Source: Oscillospiraceae bacterium (GTDB taxonomy: Bacteria; Bacillota; Clostridia; WRLR01). From it: a DNA stretch of 41,024 nucleotides. The DNA lies in the NCBI GenBank assembly GCA_009777515.1, contig WRLR01000026.1, positions 1-41,024 on the forward strand, written 5' to 3'. The position numbers and the translations under genes are program-made. The notes under the pieces were generated by a model. That model was given only the letters and a program-made list of their open reading frames with translations, was not told where the DNA came from and did not search any database. Below are positions 2,636 to 30,406 of this stretch, piece after piece; position 1 is the stretch's first letter, and each line of letters opens with the position of its first letter.

Positions 2636-4624
2636 ATGATGGATGATAAGATTACCGATGATAATTCGTATGTGCGTTATGAAGATTTTGGAGCAGCGGG
2701 CGATGGGCGAACCGACGACTTTCACGCGATACAAAAAGCGCACGCGTACGCCAATGAGCGCTGCCTCACCGTCAAGGCGAATCCAGCGAAGACTTATTAT
2801 ATAGGGTTTTCGCCCGAACCCGCTGTGATCATGACAGACACAGACTGGGGCGGGGCGCGCTTTATCGTGGACGATACCTGCGTCCCCGCTGAGCAGCGGG
2901 GCGTAGATGTGTTCGAAGTCAAATCGAGAATGACGCCGTTTGAGATGGAGGCTCCGGCAGGCATCCGCAAGGGGCAGCGGCGCATATACATGGGCGCGGA
3001 AGCGGGCGGCGGCGATGGCAGCGACAACGGCGAGCGCGGTAATACTGCGAAACTCAAGCAAAATGCCCTTGTCATCGCCACTAACAGCGGCAAAAAGCAA
3101 TTCATGCGCAAAGGGCTGAACGTGAACAGCGGGTTTGATCAAATCGATTGTTTTATCCTAGATGAGTCTGGCAACATCCTCACGCCCGTAATTTGGGATT
3201 TCGATAATGTCACTTCGCTCACGGCTTATCCCATCGACGAACGCGCGTTGCTGCTGACCGGAGGCGAATTTACCACCGTATCGACCAAATATTCGCAGGA
3301 CAAGGGGTACAACTATTTTTCGCGCGGTATATCGTTCAGCCGCTCCAATGTGATTGTCACGGGGTTGGTGCACCATGTCGCGGGCGAACTGGAGGATACG
3401 GGCTCGCCCTACGCGGGCTTTGTGCGCACCCGCGCTTGTGCATATATCCAATTCCGCGATTGCCACTTCTTCGGCCATAAGTTTTATTCGACCATCGGCG
3501 CCGCTGGCTTGCCAGTTTCGATGGGTACGTATGATATAAACTTGCAAACATCCATTGGCGTCGCGTTTTACAACTGCCGCCAGGACAACATTATGGACGC
3601 ATCGCGCTGGGGCGTTATCGGCTCGAACGGATGCAAGGATTTATTGCTGGACGGCTGCGTGTTCTCCCGGGTGGACGCGCATATGAACGTGGCTAACCTA
3701 ACGGTCCGCAACACAACGCTGGGCGTACAGGGTTTCAATGCAATCGGCCATGGCTTGCTCACCGTTGAAAACGTCACTATCATGGGGCCGTCCGTTGTGA
3801 GTCTCCGAGGGGATTATGGCAGCAGTTGGGACGGCGATTTATATATAAAAAATGTCACATGGTATCCGGCTGAACGCGTCAGCGGCAATCCCGCCGTAAT
3901 CACTGCCAATAACTCCGGCGACCACGATTTTGGATACCCATGCAGCTTCCCGCGTAAGGTGGTCATCGAAGGGCTGCGTGTGATGGACGGCCAGTACAGC
4001 GGGTTACGGGTCGGAACGCAAAGCGGGGTACAAAGTGGAACGCATGGCGAAGCGCAAAGCGGGCAGCATGAGTGCGTCAGCATCTTCGGCGGAATTGACG
4101 AATCCAATACCGGTCTGAAAAGTTTTGGCGCCCCTGCGGAAGGCGATTTCCCGCATATTTTTTCAGAATTGCTTGTCGCCGAGGGGCTTTCGACGGAAAC
4201 CGGGAAGGGCTTTAGGCTATGGTCGGGCGATGTTGACAGATGCTATAGCGCAAAGCCATATGCAGTAGGCGCCGCAAGTGACGTAAGCAATACAGGTAAA
4301 GCAAGCTCATCAGTTACAGCAGGAACAGCAGACGCCGGTGGGCTGTGGCCCAATTTTCGCGCTAGACTGACCGATATTGACCGTTTCGTCTACGATATGA
4401 GCGCAAGCGAAATAGCGTTTAACGGAGAGCATGCCAGCAAACTTGCCGGGGAACATAGCCTGGCGCCGGACATCCGCGTGTCGGAGTGCCCGCGCGTCGC
4501 AATTCGCGCCGGGAACAGGACGGCACGACTGATGATCAGTGACTGTGCGTTGGAAGACGGCGCGGATATGGGCGGCAAGGAATGTGAAGTCGTGTGTGAG
4601 CGTGTAAAAGGGGTGTTGTTATGA
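2636..4624 (+). CDS. Pectate-lyase-like right-handed beta-helix protein
   Basis: The N-terminus carries the pectate lyase superfamily signature FGAAGDGRTDD followed by an AI..AHAYAN helix (first 45 residues), typical of GH28/pectate-lyase-3-like beta-helix enzymes. The rest is a long series of short beta-helix coils rich in Asn, Gly and Val. Near residue 460-480 is a small low-complexity insertion (VGTQSGVQSGTHG). The ATG at 2636 is chosen because GAAAGGGG lies just upstream; an in-frame ATG at 2621 overlaps that site. There is no signal peptide, so it is predicted to be cytosolic. Its stop overlaps the start of the PL8 gene (ATGA), which indicates translational coupling. Likely a glycosidase or lyase on imported oligosaccharide; the exact substrate cannot be read from the sequence. 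Confidence 0.8.
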   Translation: MMDDKITDDNSYVRYEDFGAAGDGRTDDFHAIQKAHAYANERCLTVKANPAKTYYIGFSPEPAVIMTDTDWGGARFIVDDTCVPAEQRGVDVFEVKSRMTPFEMEAPAGIRKGQRRIYMGAEAGGGDGSDNGERGNTAKLKQNALVIATNSGKKQFMRKGLNVNSGFDQIDCFILDESGNILTPVIWDFDNVTSLTAYPIDERALLLTGGEFTTVSTKYSQDKGYNYFSRGISFSRSNVIVTGLVHHVAGELEDTGSPYAGFVRTRACAYIQFRDCHFFGHKFYSTIGAAGLPVSMGTYDINLQTSIGVAFYNCRQDNIMDASRWGVIGSNGCKDLLLDGCVFSRVDAHMNVANLTVRNTTLGVQGFNAIGHGLLTVENVTIMGPSVVSLRGDYGSSWDGDLYIKNVTWYPAERVSGNPAVITANNSGDHDFGYPCSFPRKVVIEGLRVMDGQYSGLRVGTQSGVQSGTHGEAQSGQHECVSIFGGIDESNTGLKSFGAPAEGDFPHIFSELLVAEGLSTETGKGFRLWSGDVDRCYSAKPYAVGAASDVSNTGKASSSVTAGTADAGGLWPNFRARLTDIDRFVYDMSASEIAFNGEHASKLAGEHSLAPDIRVSECPRVAIRAGNRTARLMISDCALEDGADMGGKECEVVCERVKGVLL

Positions 4625-23946: not shown

Positions 23947-26900
23947 TTACCGTTTGTCCGTTTGGCGGGATGGAAACTCGTACACCTCTTTTAGATATGT
24001 AAGGGTCGACGCCGGAACGAGCCGCTCGATTTCCGTGAACCTCTGCTCGCGCAGCAGCGAGCGCACCCACGTTGCGCTGATAGTCGTGCCGGCGTACTCC
24101 CGCATGGGGATCACCTGGTACGCGACGCCGTAGCGGGGCAGTACGGCGCGCATGGCGGCGTCGTATTGGAGCGCTATACTGTCGTCCGGCTGCTTCTCGC
24201 CCGTAAAAAACGCGGTTATGTTCAATGCGTTTGTTATATAGCGCGCAAATATTTCCAGCTCGGACGCCGCGCCGGAGGCGGCGTTCCGCTTGTCGCGGCT
24301 CAAATGATACGCCTCGATGGTTTTCTGGGTGACGACGTAGCGCCCCCCGGGAACCACCGTGGCGTTCGTTATGTGGCGCGTGCCCTCCCTTGCGAGCCTC
24401 AGCCGATCTGTAAACGGGAATACCGATTTGTCGTCCTCTGCGATAAAAACGTATGCGTGCTGCATTAGCGACGCGGCTTTTTCGACCAAGTGGCGGTGCC
24501 CGTGCGTGAACGGGCCGCCGCTCAGGATGACCGCGCCGGCCTGCGTTACGCCATCGCGCCTGTATTGAGACAGCCCTATTAAATAGGAAAACAGTTCCGG
24601 ATCGGCGGCGGCTTTAGGATCAAATTGAAAATTAATGTCAAAAACAATAGCACAGGCGTCGGCGCCTGTGTTTGCGCCGGCGCCATTGCTTGCGTCAGCG
24701 TCAGCGTTTGCGCCAGCGCCGCTGCTGTTTCCGGTGTCATCTCGCCCGCCGCCGCTGGGCATATCATCGGGGGCGCCGTCTTTTTGCGTTATCTCAAACC
24801 CTATCCTGTCTACGGTTTCGCCGGATTCATCAAATATCCGCATCATTTCGGTATTCCTGCGTGAGCCGGATGAAAACGCAGGATATATAATGTCCTGGTT
24901 GGACTGTGGGGACTGTTCATCGCGCCCGCCTAAATAAGCGCCATCCATATTGCCGCCTGTGTCCGCATCTGCGCCATTATTAGCATCTATATTGGCAACG
25001 GCTTCGGCTATCGCGCCCGCACCCGCGCCCGTGCCCGCTCCCAAATTCGCATTCATGCTTGATGCGCCATCAGCGCCATCGCCAGTGCCCGTTCCGGCGC
25101 CAGTTCCGGCGCCAGTTCCGGTACCAGTTCCAAAGTCATTCCCGGCGCCATTTCCAAGACCAGTACCTTTGTCATCATCAGCGTTAATTTCTGCACCAGC
25201 GAACGCACCTAAGCCCGAGCCCGAGCCCAAACCCGAACCCGCACTCAAGCCCGAGCTTGCGCCTATGCTTGCACCAACATCATCTGTAGCATTGGCCGCA
25301 GCATCCTCAACCTCCTTGTCAATGTCCGCAGCGACGCTTGTTAAATTTCTTACTCCTAAACCTGTTCCAACGCCTGCGCCTGAGCCAGCCCCCGATCCTG
25401 CGCCCGCGCCAGCCCCTGTTTCCGCTCCCGCTCCCGCTCCCTCGCCCGTTTCGCCGGAAACGGCTGTGATCTCCAGCCTCAATCCCGTGCCTTCACGGGA
25501 CGACCAAAACTCCGCGCCTGTTTTGACAGGTTTACGAATCAGGCCTTCGTTCACCAGCGAATCGTATATCGCAATGGCGTATTGCCTGTATCCGTATGAG
25601 TTCATATGCAGCGCGTCGACAAAAACCTCGCCAAGGTCGTGGGGGCGCTCAAAATAAGGCTGCACGCTGCATATATGCGCATAATCCATGTATTCGCGTA
25701 TCATCGTCTTCGGGTATGACAACAAGCAAACCACAATGTCCCCCTGCCGCAGCGGTAGCCTCCCAAGCAGCTTCGGGATTTCAAAAACATCGCCCATATT
25801 GGAATTGGCAAAGTTCAGCACATTATATTTATGTATATTGTCTGTCTGCCTGTCTTTAATGATGCCCTGCAGATGGCTTGCGATTGTCCCGCCGTCGTCG
25901 GCGCCGATACCAAAGGCAATCGAGTGCCCCAGCATATAAATGTTGCAAGTGGCTTCCGGCCACAAGCCCTCCGTATACCTCATCCCGTCCGAGCAGTTCA
26001 TATATATGCCGGAGCAATCTGCGGCCACGGTGACACCGCTATCGGTATCACCGCCCGGTGGGCCGATGTACCGCGTTTTGCCTGTGTTGTCATAAACCTT
26101 TTTTATCCGTTTTAGCGTTGTAAAACATGAGCGCATATACTCCCGATCATAACCATATGGGGCATACGCGTTATCGAATATGGCGTCATGGGACAGGCGC
26201 TTCGCGAATGGGATTTTACCGATGTTTTTGGTGATCCATTCCTCATGCTTCGACGGTTTTTCGCCTATGGCTGCCCTGTCGACAAGCAGCAAGCTGGCGC
26301 CCTCCCTGCGTGTAATGGCGAGCAGGGGTTCGACGCAGCAAGCAATAAAATATTCGTGCATACAAACGTCGTCTAAAAAGTACAGCTCAGAAAAATTATA
26401 TTCCAGTTTATGGCGAACGGCAGGTTCAATCGTTTCGATGACAAGGACCGGAGTTTGCCGATCCTCAACGTCGTCGATATCCATAAAATTGATCGAAAGT
26501 AAATACGGCCTGGTATTCAATGCTCTTTTGCCGCCTGCCCCGATAAACCCGTCGATGCGAAAATCGCCCATGGCGCCGGCCATCAGGCTGAGTCGACCGG
26601 CAAGCGCTGCCGCGCCCCCTGAGGCGCTGCCTGAGGCGCTACCTGAGGCGTTGCCGGAGGTTCCGCCGCTCCCTGAGGCGCTCCCGGAGGTGCTGCCGCT
26701 CCCTGAGGCGCTGCCGTTCCAGGAGGCTCCGCCGCTCCCGGAGGCGCTGCCGTTCCCGTATACATATATCTTGCCGATGTTTTTGCGCTTAAAATGCCTG
26801 AAAACATTCCACCCATAATCTGAAATTGCCGAAAGCGCTACCTGGATTTCGTCGTCAGTCATCTTCATCCTATACCCGACTGTAGGTATCTCGTAAGTTT

Positions 26901-27726
26901 TGCGCAGGTAGTGGAGGGTCGCGGGCGGCACGAGCTCCGATATCGCGTCAAACCTTTGCTCATCTATTAGCCCTTTGATTTGCGCCTCAATAACGGCGGC
27001 GTCGGACGTGGCGGACTTTGGCATTATCTGGTACGCGACGCTGTGCTGCGGCAGGATTTCAAGCATCGCCGTATTATACGCGCGCGTAGCCGGGCTGACG
27101 GGCTCACCGCCGGAGAAGCGGATGCTGACGCCGAGCGCGGGCGCGACATGCTCCGCAAACCGCACAATATCATCTACAACCGCAGTGGAAACATCATTAT
27201 CATTGGCCTCCGCAGCATCCGACATCGAAGTGAAATATCGCACAGATACAGTATATTTACCGCCGGAGACAACTGTGACATTTTCTAAATCGCCGACGCC
27301 CTCGGCGACAAGATTGAACCGATTTTTATATGGCATTTCCGAGTCGAAATCGTCCGCAACAAAGCAATATAGGTGGGGGACATGGGCAGCCGCATACTCA
27401 ATCAAGTATTTATGCCCATTCGTAAACGGCTCGCAGCTCAACACCAGCGCGCCAGCTTCGGCGACGCCCTCTTTGCGGCAACTGGCCAAATATTCAATAT
27501 ATTCGTCCAGGCTGGCATCGCCGGCCCATTTGCGCAGCGCTCCGCCTCTTCCGCCGCCGCTTGCACCGCCGCCTGAACTACCGCCAAAGCCGCCGCCACC
27601 TGAATCACCGCCTAAGCCGCCGTCCACTTCGACGCCGCCGCCAATGACATCCATATTTAAGCCAACGTCCATATTGATGCCTTCGTCCATATTGATGCCA
27701 TCTGTTTTCGCATCTGAAATATCCAA
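23947..27726 (-). CDS. Multidomain fusion: CitC-like NTase, Rossmann-like, SGNH hydrolase-like, CitC-like NTase
   Basis: This 1259-residue protein has no clear signal peptide. After a repetitive start (INMDEGINMDVG) and Gly-rich linker, residues about 70-285 form a citrate-lyase-ligase C-terminal-like nucleotidyltransferase with T102-N-G-H105. Residues 310-460 look Rossmann-like (KIYVYGNG, DGFIGAG) but are split by a Gly/Ser linker. Residues about 590-740 resemble an SGNH hydrolase (MLGHSIAFG with S602, and D704-A-L-H707). A Gly/Ala/Thr/Asp linker spans about 745-1030. Residues about 1045-1255 hold a second nucleotidyltransferase with T1074-H-G-H1077 and ISATWVR (1216-1222). The start is TTG 27726 after GGGGGA. 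It is divergent from a TarI/IspD-like gene. Likely linked to an activated polymer precursor; not proven. Confidence 0.8.
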   Translation of the reverse strand: MDISDAKTDGINMDEGINMDVGLNMDVIGGGVEVDGGLGGDSGGGGFGGSSGGGASGGGRGGALRKWAGDASLDEYIEYLASCRKEGVAEAGALVLSCEPFTNGHKYLIEYAAAHVPHLYCFVADDFDSEMPYKNRFNLVAEGVGDLENVTVVSGGKYTVSVRYFTSMSDAAEANDNDVSTAVVDDIVRFAEHVAPALGVSIRFSGGEPVSPATRAYNTAMLEILPQHSVAYQIMPKSATSDAAVIEAQIKGLIDEQRFDAISELVPPATLHYLRKTYEIPTVGYRMKMTDDEIQVALSAISDYGWNVFRHFKRKNIGKIYVYGNGSASGSGGASWNGSASGSGSTSGSASGSGGTSGNASGSASGSASGGAAALAGRLSLMAGAMGDFRIDGFIGAGGKRALNTRPYLLSINFMDIDDVEDRQTPVLVIETIEPAVRHKLEYNFSELYFLDDVCMHEYFIACCVEPLLAITRREGASLLLVDRAAIGEKPSKHEEWITKNIGKIPFAKRLSHDAIFDNAYAPYGYDREYMRSCFTTLKRIKKVYDNTGKTRYIGPPGGDTDSGVTVAADCSGIYMNCSDGMRYTEGLWPEATCNIYMLGHSIAFGIGADDGGTIASHLQGIIKDRQTDNIHKYNVLNFANSNMGDVFEIPKLLGRLPLRQGDIVVCLLSYPKTMIREYMDYAHICSVQPYFERPHDLGEVFVDALHMNSYGYRQYAIAIYDSLVNEGLIRKPVKTGAEFWSSREGTGLRLEITAVSGETGEGAGAGAETGAGAGAGSGAGSGAGVGTGLGVRNLTSVAADIDKEVEDAAANATDDVGASIGASSGLSAGSGLGSGSGLGAFAGAEINADDDKGTGLGNGAGNDFGTGTGTGAGTGAGTGTGDGADGASSMNANLGAGTGAGAGAIAEAVANIDANNGADADTGGNMDGAYLGGRDEQSPQSNQDIIYPAFSSGSRRNTEMMRIFDESGETVDRIGFEITQKDGAPDDMPSGGGRDDTGNSSGAGANADADASNGAGANTGADACAIVFDINFQFDPKAAADPELFSYLIGLSQYRRDGVTQAGAVILSGGPFTHGHRHLVEKAASLMQHAYVFIAEDDKSVFPFTDRLRLAREGTRHITNATVVPGGRYVVTQKTIEAYHLSRDKRNAASGAASELEIFARYITNALNITAFFTGEKQPDDSIALQYDAAMRAVLPRYGVAYQVIPMREYAGTTISATWVRSLLREQRFTEIERLVPASTLTYLKEVYEFPSRQTDKR
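24640..25490 (-). repeat. Long low-complexity linker of the fusion protein
   Basis: About 280 codons encode Gly, Ala, Thr, Asn, Asp and Ser repeats such as GTGTGAGTGAGT. At the DNA level there are short tandem units, for example 12-bp GGCGCCAGTTCC-type copies near 25085-25130 and 6-bp units near 25208-25250. It connects the SGNH-like and C-terminal nucleotidyltransferase domains. Confidence 0.85.
26590..26760 (-). repeat. Gly/Ser linker inside the Rossmann-like segment
   Basis: Repeated GAGGCGCTGCC-like units on the plus strand encode (Gly-Ser-Ala)n on the minus strand. The insertion falls directly after VYGNG, the likely dinucleotide-binding loop. Confidence 0.85.
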
Positions 27727-27982
27727 AGTTTTGTCCCCCGCGTAAACATATTAAATATACCTCATTATATTGCCCCGACTATGCAAATGCAATGTCAGCG
27801 GGCGCTTATTTTTTTAATATGACTATTTTAACAATATATGTCAATTATTCACAAAAAGCATGGCAACGAAAATTTCTCATTGTTGCCGTAAACCTGTTAT
27901 GATAGTAAACAACAGAGATATATATAACGATATAAATAACAAAATATGTAACTAATAAATACGCTGACGAAGGGGCATAAGC

Positions 27983-28705
27983 ATGATATATGCGGCAGTA
28001 CTGGCCGGCGGCGCCGGCATACGAATGCGGAGGGACGATTTGCCCAAACAATTTTTGCCGTTGGGCGGAAAAAGCATCTTGGCGCACTCGGCACTGCGGT
28101 TTCTAAATAACACGAATATTGATAAAGTACTTATTGCCGTTCCTGACGATTGGCTGGCATATACGGAGCATCTATTTTCGTCGGACAAAGACGCCGGCGT
28201 CCACTCCGCAAAAATCGTGCTGGTCCAGGGTGGGGCCGACAGGAACTCCAGCCTTATGGCGGTCGTCGATAAAATCGTGACGTTATACGGCGTCGCAGAT
28301 GACGATATCATAGTCTCGCACGACGCGGTCCGTCCCTTTTTTACGCAGAGGATCATTGATGAAAATATCGAGGCATGCAAAATATGCGGCGCCGCAGCCA
28401 CGATCTATCCATTTACCGACACGCCGGTGTTGTCCACCGACGGCGAGACCATATCGAATATCCCTGTGCGAAATGGGTTTTATGTGGCCCAGACGCCGCA
28501 GACATTTAATATAAAATTATTAATGGAAGTATATACTTCTCTGTCCGATGATGATAAAAGCATTCTGACCGACGCGAGTAAAATGTTTGTGTTAAAAAAC
28601 AAAACGGTGAGGATCGTCCAGGGCGAAAGCTATAACTTAAAAATAACGACGCCTTTCGATTACATCCTGGCACAGGCATTAATAAACGAAAATAACATAG
28701 AGTAA
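27983..28705 (+). CDS. IspD/TarI family cytidylyltransferase
   Basis: This protein transfers CMP from CTP to a polyol phosphate (ribitol-5-phosphate in TarI, methylerythritol phosphate in IspD). The substrate loop AGGAGIRMRRDDLPKQF is near the N-terminus, followed by the core motifs SHDAVRPF (about residues 112-119) and AQTPQTF. The size, 240 residues, is normal. ATG 27983 follows GAAGGGG. The presence of a divergent gene with two other nucleotidyltransferase domains favours the TarI-like polymer role over isoprenoid synthesis, but the sequence alone does not decide. A 26-bp inverted repeat (GGCAAC-N14-GTTGCC, near 27870-27895) lies in the shared promoter region. Confidence 0.88.
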   Translation: MIYAAVLAGGAGIRMRRDDLPKQFLPLGGKSILAHSALRFLNNTNIDKVLIAVPDDWLAYTEHLFSSDKDAGVHSAKIVLVQGGADRNSSLMAVVDKIVTLYGVADDDIIVSHDAVRPFFTQRIIDENIEACKICGAAATIYPFTDTPVLSTDGETISNIPVRNGFYVAQTPQTFNIKLLMEVYTSLSDDDKSILTDASKMFVLKNKTVRIVQGESYNLKITTPFDYILAQALINENNIE

Positions 28706-28953: not shown

Positions 28954-29334
28954 ATGATATTTATCAATCCAAGAAATCCCAAGCCGCTGCACGAACAAAT
29001 CAAAGAAAGCGTGCTGGAGCAGATATCGTTGGGCCTCATGTCGCCCGGCGACAGGCTGCCATCTGTGCGCGAAATGGCGCAATCGATGCGCATAGCGCCA
29101 AATACGATCCAGCGCGCGTACAGGGAGCTGGAAACCGGGGGCGTGATAAATTCGTACCCGGGGAGGGGCTCGTTCATCACAATACACAGCGACGGTATAC
29201 GCGAGCGCCGCAAGGGGGAGCTTGCTGCGCGGTTCACGCAACTTATCGGGGAGATGCGAAATATGGGCGTTACAGAAGACGAAATGCAGCGCTTATTGAA
29301 GGGGGGAGTCGCGTCACATGACTCAGACGGTTAA
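28954..29334 (+). CDS. GntR family regulator, YtrA subfamily
   Basis: This 126-residue protein has the winged-helix domain of GntR regulators: PLHEQIKESVLEQISLG, SPGDRLPSVREMA and NTIQRAYRELE, followed by the wing YPGRGSFIT. The short C-terminal part (about 45 residues) is typical of the YtrA group that autoregulates ABC operons. ATG 28954 has GGGGGC about 10 bp upstream and gives the standard MIFINPRNPKPLHEQ start; ATG 28924 is a possible longer start. Its end overlaps the ATPase start, confirming an operon. Confidence 0.9.
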   Translation: MIFINPRNPKPLHEQIKESVLEQISLGLMSPGDRLPSVREMAQSMRIAPNTIQRAYRELETGGVINSYPGRGSFITIHSDGIRERRKGELAARFTQLIGEMRNMGVTEDEMQRLLKGGVASHDSDG

Positions 29335-30406
29335 CACAGGTATTAATATGGACAACGCCACGATCGGCATCGGGCCGACGGTAACAGCAGCCATCATGAT
29401 AGAAGTACGGGCGCTGATCAAGCGCTTCGACGGCTTCACGGCGTTGGACGAAATGGCGCTGCATGTTCCGAGGGGCAGCATATACGGGCTGGTCGGGCCG
29501 AACGGCGCGGGCAAAACCACGCTTATCAGGCACATCGCAGGGGCGTACCGCCCGGACAGCGGCGACATATTGGTCGACGGCAGCCCTGTATGGGAGAACC
29601 CGCAGATCAAGCAGCGGTTGATCCACATCCCGGACGATTTAAACTTCATCCCATCGGCGAATATAAACGATCTGGCCACATATTACAGGCACATATATCC
29701 AAATTTTAACATGGATCGATTTGAACGGCTTAAAACCGCTTTTCCCCTGGATTTAAAGCGGCGCGTGAGCAAATTCTCAAAGGGCATGCAAAAGCAGACG
29801 GCGCTTTGGCTCGCTCTGTGCTGCATGCCGGACGTGATGCTGCTGGACGAGCCGGTGGACGGCTTGGACCCTGTGGCGAGGCGGATTGTGTGGAGCCTGA
29901 TATTGCGGGACGTCGCCGATAGGCAGACCACGGTGCTGATATCGTCGCACAACCTGCGCGAGCTGGACGGCATCAGCGACCATATAGGGATAATGCGGGA
30001 CGGTAAATTGATATTGGAGCGGGCCCTCGCGGACTTGCAAGGCGATGTGACCAAGTTGCAAATCGTGCTCGCGAAACCCGGGGGCGGCGGCGCGACCGAC
30101 AGTGGCATTACGTCGCCGTTGGGTGGCGCGGCCGGCGGTGGCATTGCGTCGCCGTTGGGCGGCGCGGCCGGTGGCGATTCGGCATCACCGCCGGGCGGCG
30201 CCTTCCGGCTTCCGGGCTTTACGATACTGCACGAGTCGCACAATGGGCGGCTTTCGGAGTATATCATACGGGGCAGCGCGGACAGCGTCCTCGCTGCGGC
30301 GAACGCCATCGATCCGCCGCCGCTGCTGGCCGACGCGATTCCGCTGACACTTGAAGAAATATTCATCTACGAGTTGGGGGGTATGGATTATGCCGAATAT
30401 ATTTAA
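29318..30406 (+). CDS. ABC transporter ATP-binding protein (YtrB-like)
   Basis: This is the ATPase of a YtrA-controlled ABC-2 type transporter. Walker A is GPNGAGKT (about residues 60-67), the signature FSKGMQKQ, Walker B VMLLDEPVDGLD and the switch ISSHN. The N-terminus has a non-conserved extension including the odd GINMDN. After residue 250, repeats of GGxxSPLGGAAG (30102-30190) form an inserted linker before a final domain ending in EEIFIYELGG. The start at 29318 overlaps the regulator gene by 17 bp and the stop overlaps the permease gene. Confidence 0.9.
   Translation: MTQTVNTGINMDNATIGIGPTVTAAIMIEVRALIKRFDGFTALDEMALHVPRGSIYGLVGPNGAGKTTLIRHIAGAYRPDSGDILVDGSPVWENPQIKQRLIHIPDDLNFIPSANINDLATYYRHIYPNFNMDRFERLKTAFPLDLKRRVSKFSKGMQKQTALWLALCCMPDVMLLDEPVDGLDPVARRIVWSLILRDVADRQTTVLISSHNLRELDGISDHIGIMRDGKLILERALADLQGDVTKLQIVLAKPGGGGATDSGITSPLGGAAGGGIASPLGGAAGGDSASPPGGAFRLPGFTILHESHNGRLSEYIIRGSADSVLAAANAIDPPPLLADAIPLTLEEIFIYELGGMDYAEYI
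30102..30190 (+). repeat. 36-bp tandem repeat inside the ATPase gene
   Basis: Two near-identical 36-bp copies and a third diverged copy encode GITSPLGGAAGG, GIASPLGGAAGG and GDSASPPGGA. The period is a multiple of three, so the frame is preserved. Confidence 0.85.

Follow-up and report, generated by a model that had tools for sequence, protein, structure and literature searches.

The window, by which we mean the whole 41,024-nucleotide stretch of Oscillospiraceae DNA that was analysed, carries a long gene for a multidomain fusion protein and, divergent from it, a gene for a cytidylyltransferase. The features are as follows.

23947..27726, minus strand: fusion gene, 1259 aa, TTG start, in the order NTase1, alpha/beta segment, SGNH-like domain, linker, NTase2
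27517..27726, minus strand: Gly-rich N-terminal tail, residues 1-70, read from the sequence
26887..27516, minus strand: NTase1, CitC C-terminal type, residues ~71-280
26020..26874, minus strand: alpha/beta ('Rossmann-like') segment, residues 285-569, conserved in genome G001 only
26608..26748, minus strand: Gly/Ser low-complexity insertion in the alpha/beta segment, residues 327-373, not in G001
25492..26019, minus strand: SGNH-like domain, residues 570-745
24607..25491, minus strand: Gly/Ala/Asp low-complexity linker, residues 746-1040
23974..24600, minus strand: NTase2, CitC C-terminal type, residues 1043-1251
27727..27982, no strand: divergent AT-rich intergenic region, 256 bp, 32% GC
27983..28705, plus strand: TarI-like (D-ribitol-5-phosphate type) cytidylyltransferase, 240 aa, assigned by family scores and structure matches

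Both reading frames of the preliminary description, the 1259-residue one and that of the divergent cytidylyltransferase, were recovered at these coordinates. Promoter-like sites were found on each strand of the intergenic region in numbers not far above those in shuffled sequences, and purine-rich, ribosome-binding-like stretches (GGGGGA, GAAGGGG) lie upstream of the fusion and TarI-like starts. The genome G001, from a second genus within the taxonomic family of the window, encodes a 1255-aa open frame with an identical domain order (NTase, middle, SGNH-like, NTase), which is ~51% identical to the window protein in NTase1, ~48% in the middle plus SGNH region and ~61% in NTase2. As the whole protein is kept in G001, the window fusion is real and more than a chance open reading frame. 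The linkers of the two proteins did not align, which, together with the absence of the Gly/Ser tract from G001, indicates that the domains, but not the linkers, are under selection. The alpha/beta segment had been called Rossmann-like, a designation that we could not confirm: the segment has no family match, and its AlphaFold2 pLDDT is mostly 25-55. Homology of this segment to the N-terminal regions of other fusions was considered and rejected, as a profile matched it in the window and G001 proteins only.

The NTase domains were assigned by family searches. Citrate_ly_lig (PF08218) from Pfam matched the protein twice (E 1.7e-84 for the protein), and the NCBIfam model cit_ly_ligase likewise covered two stretches, identifying both NTases as CitC C-terminal domains, in agreement with the citrate-lyase-ligase-like domains proposed earlier. 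NTase1 retains TxGH (residues 102-105) but has VIEAQIKG (residues 245-252) where ISAS.VR is expected, whereas the HIGH-type motifs of NTase2 are intact, with TxGH (residues 1074-1077) as an NPFT.GH-like motif and ISATWVR (residues 1216-1222) as the ISAS.VR-like one. Among 69 NTase copies, the ISAS.VR-type motif was lost in NTase1 of both genera (AIGLRIQE in G001), kept in NTase2, and present, with few exceptions, in stand-alone CitC and in fusion proteins with a single NTase. Therefore, only NTase2 looks catalytic; NTase1 is presumably dead, and the view of the protein as two working nucleotidyltransferases is not supported. In a maximum-likelihood tree, the four NTase copies of the window and G001 proteins formed one clade (support 100/97) within which each pair was also a clade, suggesting that NTase1 arose by internal duplication before the two genera split and was altered afterwards. 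The fusion NTases mostly grouped apart from stand-alone CitC (94/96), the exceptions being one long-branched stand-alone row inside the fusion group and one long-branched fusion row outside it.

Compared with CitC (TIGR00124, PF08218), both fusion NTases match the C-terminal NTase domain along its whole length and share its TxGH motif, and NTase2 also shares the ISAS.VR-type motif. However, the fusion has no match to the N-terminal part of CitC, its best stretch covering TIGR00124 profile positions 122-330 only; its score, with the two copies summed, is 260.6 bits, just under the cut-off of 262.1; and it combines two NTase copies with an SGNH-like domain. No citrate-lyase genes were detected among the window neighbours scanned. 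PF08218 was matched by all 22 fusions scanned, nine of which also matched HIGH_NTase1, the TmcAL family; the TmcAL-family HMM matches, seen in several fusions, were weak. The likeness to TmcAL and HIGH_NTase1 (PF05636, PF16581) thus lies in the HIGH-type NTase fold and in these weak matches, with no full-length match: the window protein scored 12 bits against a PF05636 cut-off of 27, and one relative reached 29.6 bits over a short stretch only. Unlike TmcAL, the fusion is not expected to act on tRNA. A full-length relative from family f114 folded with a mean pLDDT of 84.5, and its top solved matches in Foldseek were phosphopantetheine adenylyltransferases (PPAT), via the NTase. In the model of window residues 71-749, NTase1 was confident, the SGNH-like domain moderate and the middle low in confidence; PPAT again ranked first, with TmcAL (5y0t) among the matches. 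In both models, the top matches fell on the NTase and not on the SGNH-like part.

The SGNH-like domain of the window protein falls below Pfam thresholds, and its assignment was approached through motifs, profiles and models. A block I Gly-x-Ser is present as GHS (residues 600-602), with Ser602 as the candidate nucleophile, and a block V Asp-x-x-His as DALH (residues 704-707), with Asp704 and His707. The nucleophile column of 48 sampled copies holds Cys in 39, Ser in 7, Thr in 1 (G001) and Asp in 1, a Cys/Ser ratio that is biased because the starting query carried Cys; Ser occurs in the Leisingera and Vibrio copies. The block V His is present in 46 copies, and the Asp-bearing copy lacks it too. 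The GxND motif is absent from the aligned block, where the column of the block III Asn (oxyanion hole) is variable. A 12-member profile matched the SGNH esterase 9otv weakly (E 7.5e-4), with both block I and the His of block V aligned, and its nearest solved relatives are esterases and lipases. AlphaFold2 modelled the segment as an alpha/beta fold with a pLDDT of ~75-87 for most blocks. The SGNH-like domain of the preliminary description is supported; with this weak profile match and a model of moderate confidence, an SGNH fold is a candidate assignment.

SGNH enzymes form acyl-enzymes, and glycan O-acetyltransferases are among them; in SGNH hydrolases the block I Ser has been termed invariant and essential (PMC9487903). 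With the SGNH/GDSL hydrolases and O-acetyltransferases (TesA-like, OatA/PatB-type) the fusion shares blocks I and V, but it differs in the Cys that replaces Ser in most sampled members of its family, in the variable block III Asn and in having no membrane acyltransferase part. Neither an SGNH Cys nucleophile nor a CitC-SGNH fusion was found in the literature searched, which covered papers outside subscription.

Relatives were found well beyond the window lineage. An SGNH-like domain precedes a single CitC-type NTase in the Clostridia genome G246, and within family f114, 52 of 189 sampled genomes contained matches to this SGNH-like domain. In named genomes, a scan located the f114-like loci in Selenomonadaceae, where SGNH-NTase fusions are common, and other loci in Lachnospiraceae, Synergistaceae and Leisingera; a Vibrio plasmid record also carries a fusion. 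Among the non-redundant open reading frames in hand, 37 have the order SGNH-NTase, and the order NTase-SGNH-NTase is confined to the window lineage; a single Synergistaceae protein combines one NTase with two SGNH domains. Viral sequences scanned with the whole protein and the SGNH alignment yielded no relative; phage and plasmid collections held mostly ordinary CitC, plus the Vibrio fusion and a protein with an NTase domain from the deltaproteobacterium Smac51. The family is widespread in bacteria and apparently undescribed, with the window protein as an unusual member.

The Smac51 protein (P0001; locus L122, 1-2736; 912 aa) consists of an N-terminal GDS-containing stretch, repeats and a CitC-type NTase, and its gene adjoins sulfate-activation genes. 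One genome of the Selenomonadaceae family (G869; L090, 5558-13295) carries three to four tandem SGNH-NTase genes. In Synergistaceae (L118, 1765-7461), two divergent genes encode repeated segment-SGNH units, and in one SGNH copy the nucleophile is replaced by Asp and the His by Arg; their joint loss suggests a dead copy beside a live one. In a further relative (L071, G929), residues 22-99, N-terminal to the SGNH domain, match ILEI weakly (E 0.0011, below the cut-off), and this region is possibly a sugar-binding module.

The genes around several relatives point to glycan or surface-polymer chemistry, the general role suggested for the locus at the outset. The G246 fusion lies in a capsule-type locus, as judged from open reading frames read by eye and not from a family search. 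One relative (L095) is near the nonulosonic-acid genes for NeuB, UDP-GlcNAc 2-epimerase and a CMP-sugar synthetase-like protein; the Synergistaceae relative of L118 is near PglD-type acetyltransferase and CBS-nucleotidyltransferase genes; and the Leisingera fusion (L117) lies near a radical SAM gene and flagellar-type genes, the latter again recognised by reading and not by family search. The window itself offers a GntR-type regulator, ABC transporter parts, a HAD hydrolase and others as neighbours, among which the scan found no glycan or polysaccharide operon.

The divergent neighbour is a TarI/IspD-like cytidylyltransferase, as first described, and its scores place it with TarI rather than IspD: 280.9 bits against the NCBIfam TarI model NF001183 (cut-off 166) versus 140 bits against the IspD model TIGR00453, below the cut-off of 181, and 204-228 bits against TarI structures versus ~80 or less against IspD. 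Although its family and structure scores are those of TarI, no TarJ or teichoic-acid genes were seen among the window neighbours scanned. It would make a CDP-polyol (CDP-ribitol-like) by itself; cooperation with the fusion is possible. The full architecture recurs in G001, but the link to TarI is not general. Of 30 relatives' loci spanning 8 kb or more, among which some duplicate one another, one had an IspD-family gene close to the fusion. The IspD-family matches in G001 and G002 resemble the window gene only distantly, those of G001 not being orthologues; two of these matches lie beside CarD-like and PIN/TRAM-like open reading frames, as read by eye. The relatives are few and incomplete in this respect: the G001 assembly reaches 85% completeness, and the contig in question begins within the fusion gene, leaving the upstream gene outside. 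To judge from these comparisons, homologues largely lack a conserved cytidylyltransferase partner, and the proposed fusion-cytidylyltransferase link is not upheld.

The neighbour was also considered as the IspD of this genome. Its TarI scores and its position below the IspD cut-off speak against this, but no other full-length IspD-family gene was found in the assembly, and it may be so nonetheless. IspF is present (G000:C2:63304-63714), and a partial match on C132 is GlmU. This leaves two possibilities: an IspD gene hidden in an assembly gap, or a TarI-like enzyme that does the work of both.

For the fusion protein, the reading we prefer, with a probability of roughly 45%, is that of a CoA-independent acyltransferase producing its own activated donor. 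NTase2 would spend ATP on activating a small carboxylic acid (acetate in the simplest case) as an acyl-AMP, from which the acyl group would pass to the SGNH nucleophile, which would be Ser602 here and Cys in most sampled relatives, and finally to a hydroxyl or amine group on a sugar, polyol or nonulosonic acid. NTase1 would be a non-catalytic internal duplicate, perhaps retained for binding or dimer-like packing. The steps beyond the domain identities are what we infer. CitC is an acetate:SH-citrate lyase ligase (PMC10798043), and TmcAL forms acetyl-adenylate from ATP and acetate before transfer (PMC12514573). With these two nearest characterised NTase families acting on acetate and the SGNH relatives forming acyl-enzymes, the simplest reading is a path from acyl-AMP through acyl-Ser/Cys to an acylated acceptor. 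Several observations count against this acyl relay. The block III Asn is variable, G001 has a Thr nucleophile, and the window has no glycan operon; many f114 copies lie between housekeeping-type genes, sometimes in tandem, with no glycan cluster. HIGH-type NTases also yield nucleotide-activated products, as in PPAT and NadR.

In the interpretation first offered, the NTases and the TarI-like enzyme cooperate to supply a surface polymer with a CDP- or AMP-activated small molecule, whose esters are edited by the SGNH domain. The domain superfamilies permit this reading, the TarI family makes CDP-ribitol and its member here is divergent from the fusion gene, and one relative's locus (L101) has an IspD-like gene, a gene for a TagF-like glycerophosphotransferase and the fusion in one cluster within 5 kb. 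However, since CitC and TmcAL turn carboxylates into acyl-adenylates, an acyl-AMP is a likelier product of the fusion than a CDP-activated compound; with the motif lost in NTase1 and the neighbour rarely conserved, we regard this interpretation as unlikely. We consider it quite improbable that an acyl-AMP is made but that the SGNH-like domain acts as a hydrolase or thioesterase, removing or proofreading acyl groups: the esterases and lipases nearest to its profile would fit, but ATP would be wasted if one chain made and hydrolysed the same acyl group, and the Cys that most sampled copies carry instead of Ser is uncommon among esterases, in which the block I Ser is described as invariant (PMC9487903). 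The least likely of the readings, that the window-lineage protein is at least partly a non-catalytic scaffold or binding protein, draws on the NTase1 motif loss, a nucleophile that is Ser here and Thr in G001, and the long low-complexity linkers inserted, but the NTase2 motifs and the SGNH His are intact in both genera, and the domains are ~48-61% identical between them.

Extending the acyl relay to the relatives, we consider plausible, at somewhat less than even odds, a widespread and undescribed class of acyltransferases that are self-sufficient. Acyl-AMP would be made by a CitC/TmcAL-type domain, and a covalently linked SGNH-like domain would relay the acyl group through a Cys thioester or Ser ester to surface glycans, polyol phosphates, nonulosonic acids or flagellin glycans with neither CoA nor a membrane acyl carrier; in the window lineage, internal duplication would have added a pseudo-NTase with a regulatory role. 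The usual explanation of surface-glycan acylation invokes acyltransferases that depend on acetyl-CoA or are membrane-relayed. If the proposal is true, a soluble fusion with its own acyl-AMP and an SGNH Cys/Ser relay would constitute a third route, one that many gut and rumen bacteria are predicted to have and that would bear on their decoration of capsules, flagella and teichoic-acid-like polymers. The main interest lies in the unreported fusion family rather than in the window variant. Since citrate lyase ligase is the routine annotation of this NTase domain, many of its genes may be misnamed.

Low-complexity tracts in the source genome extend beyond the fusion protein. Gly/Ala/Ser/Asn tracts lie in, or are added to, several of its ordinary proteins, for example those encoded at 29318-30406 of the window, at 3263-3862 of locus L120 (IspF) and at 304-1887 of locus L002 (GlmU). 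Such insertions are an unusual habit of this genome.
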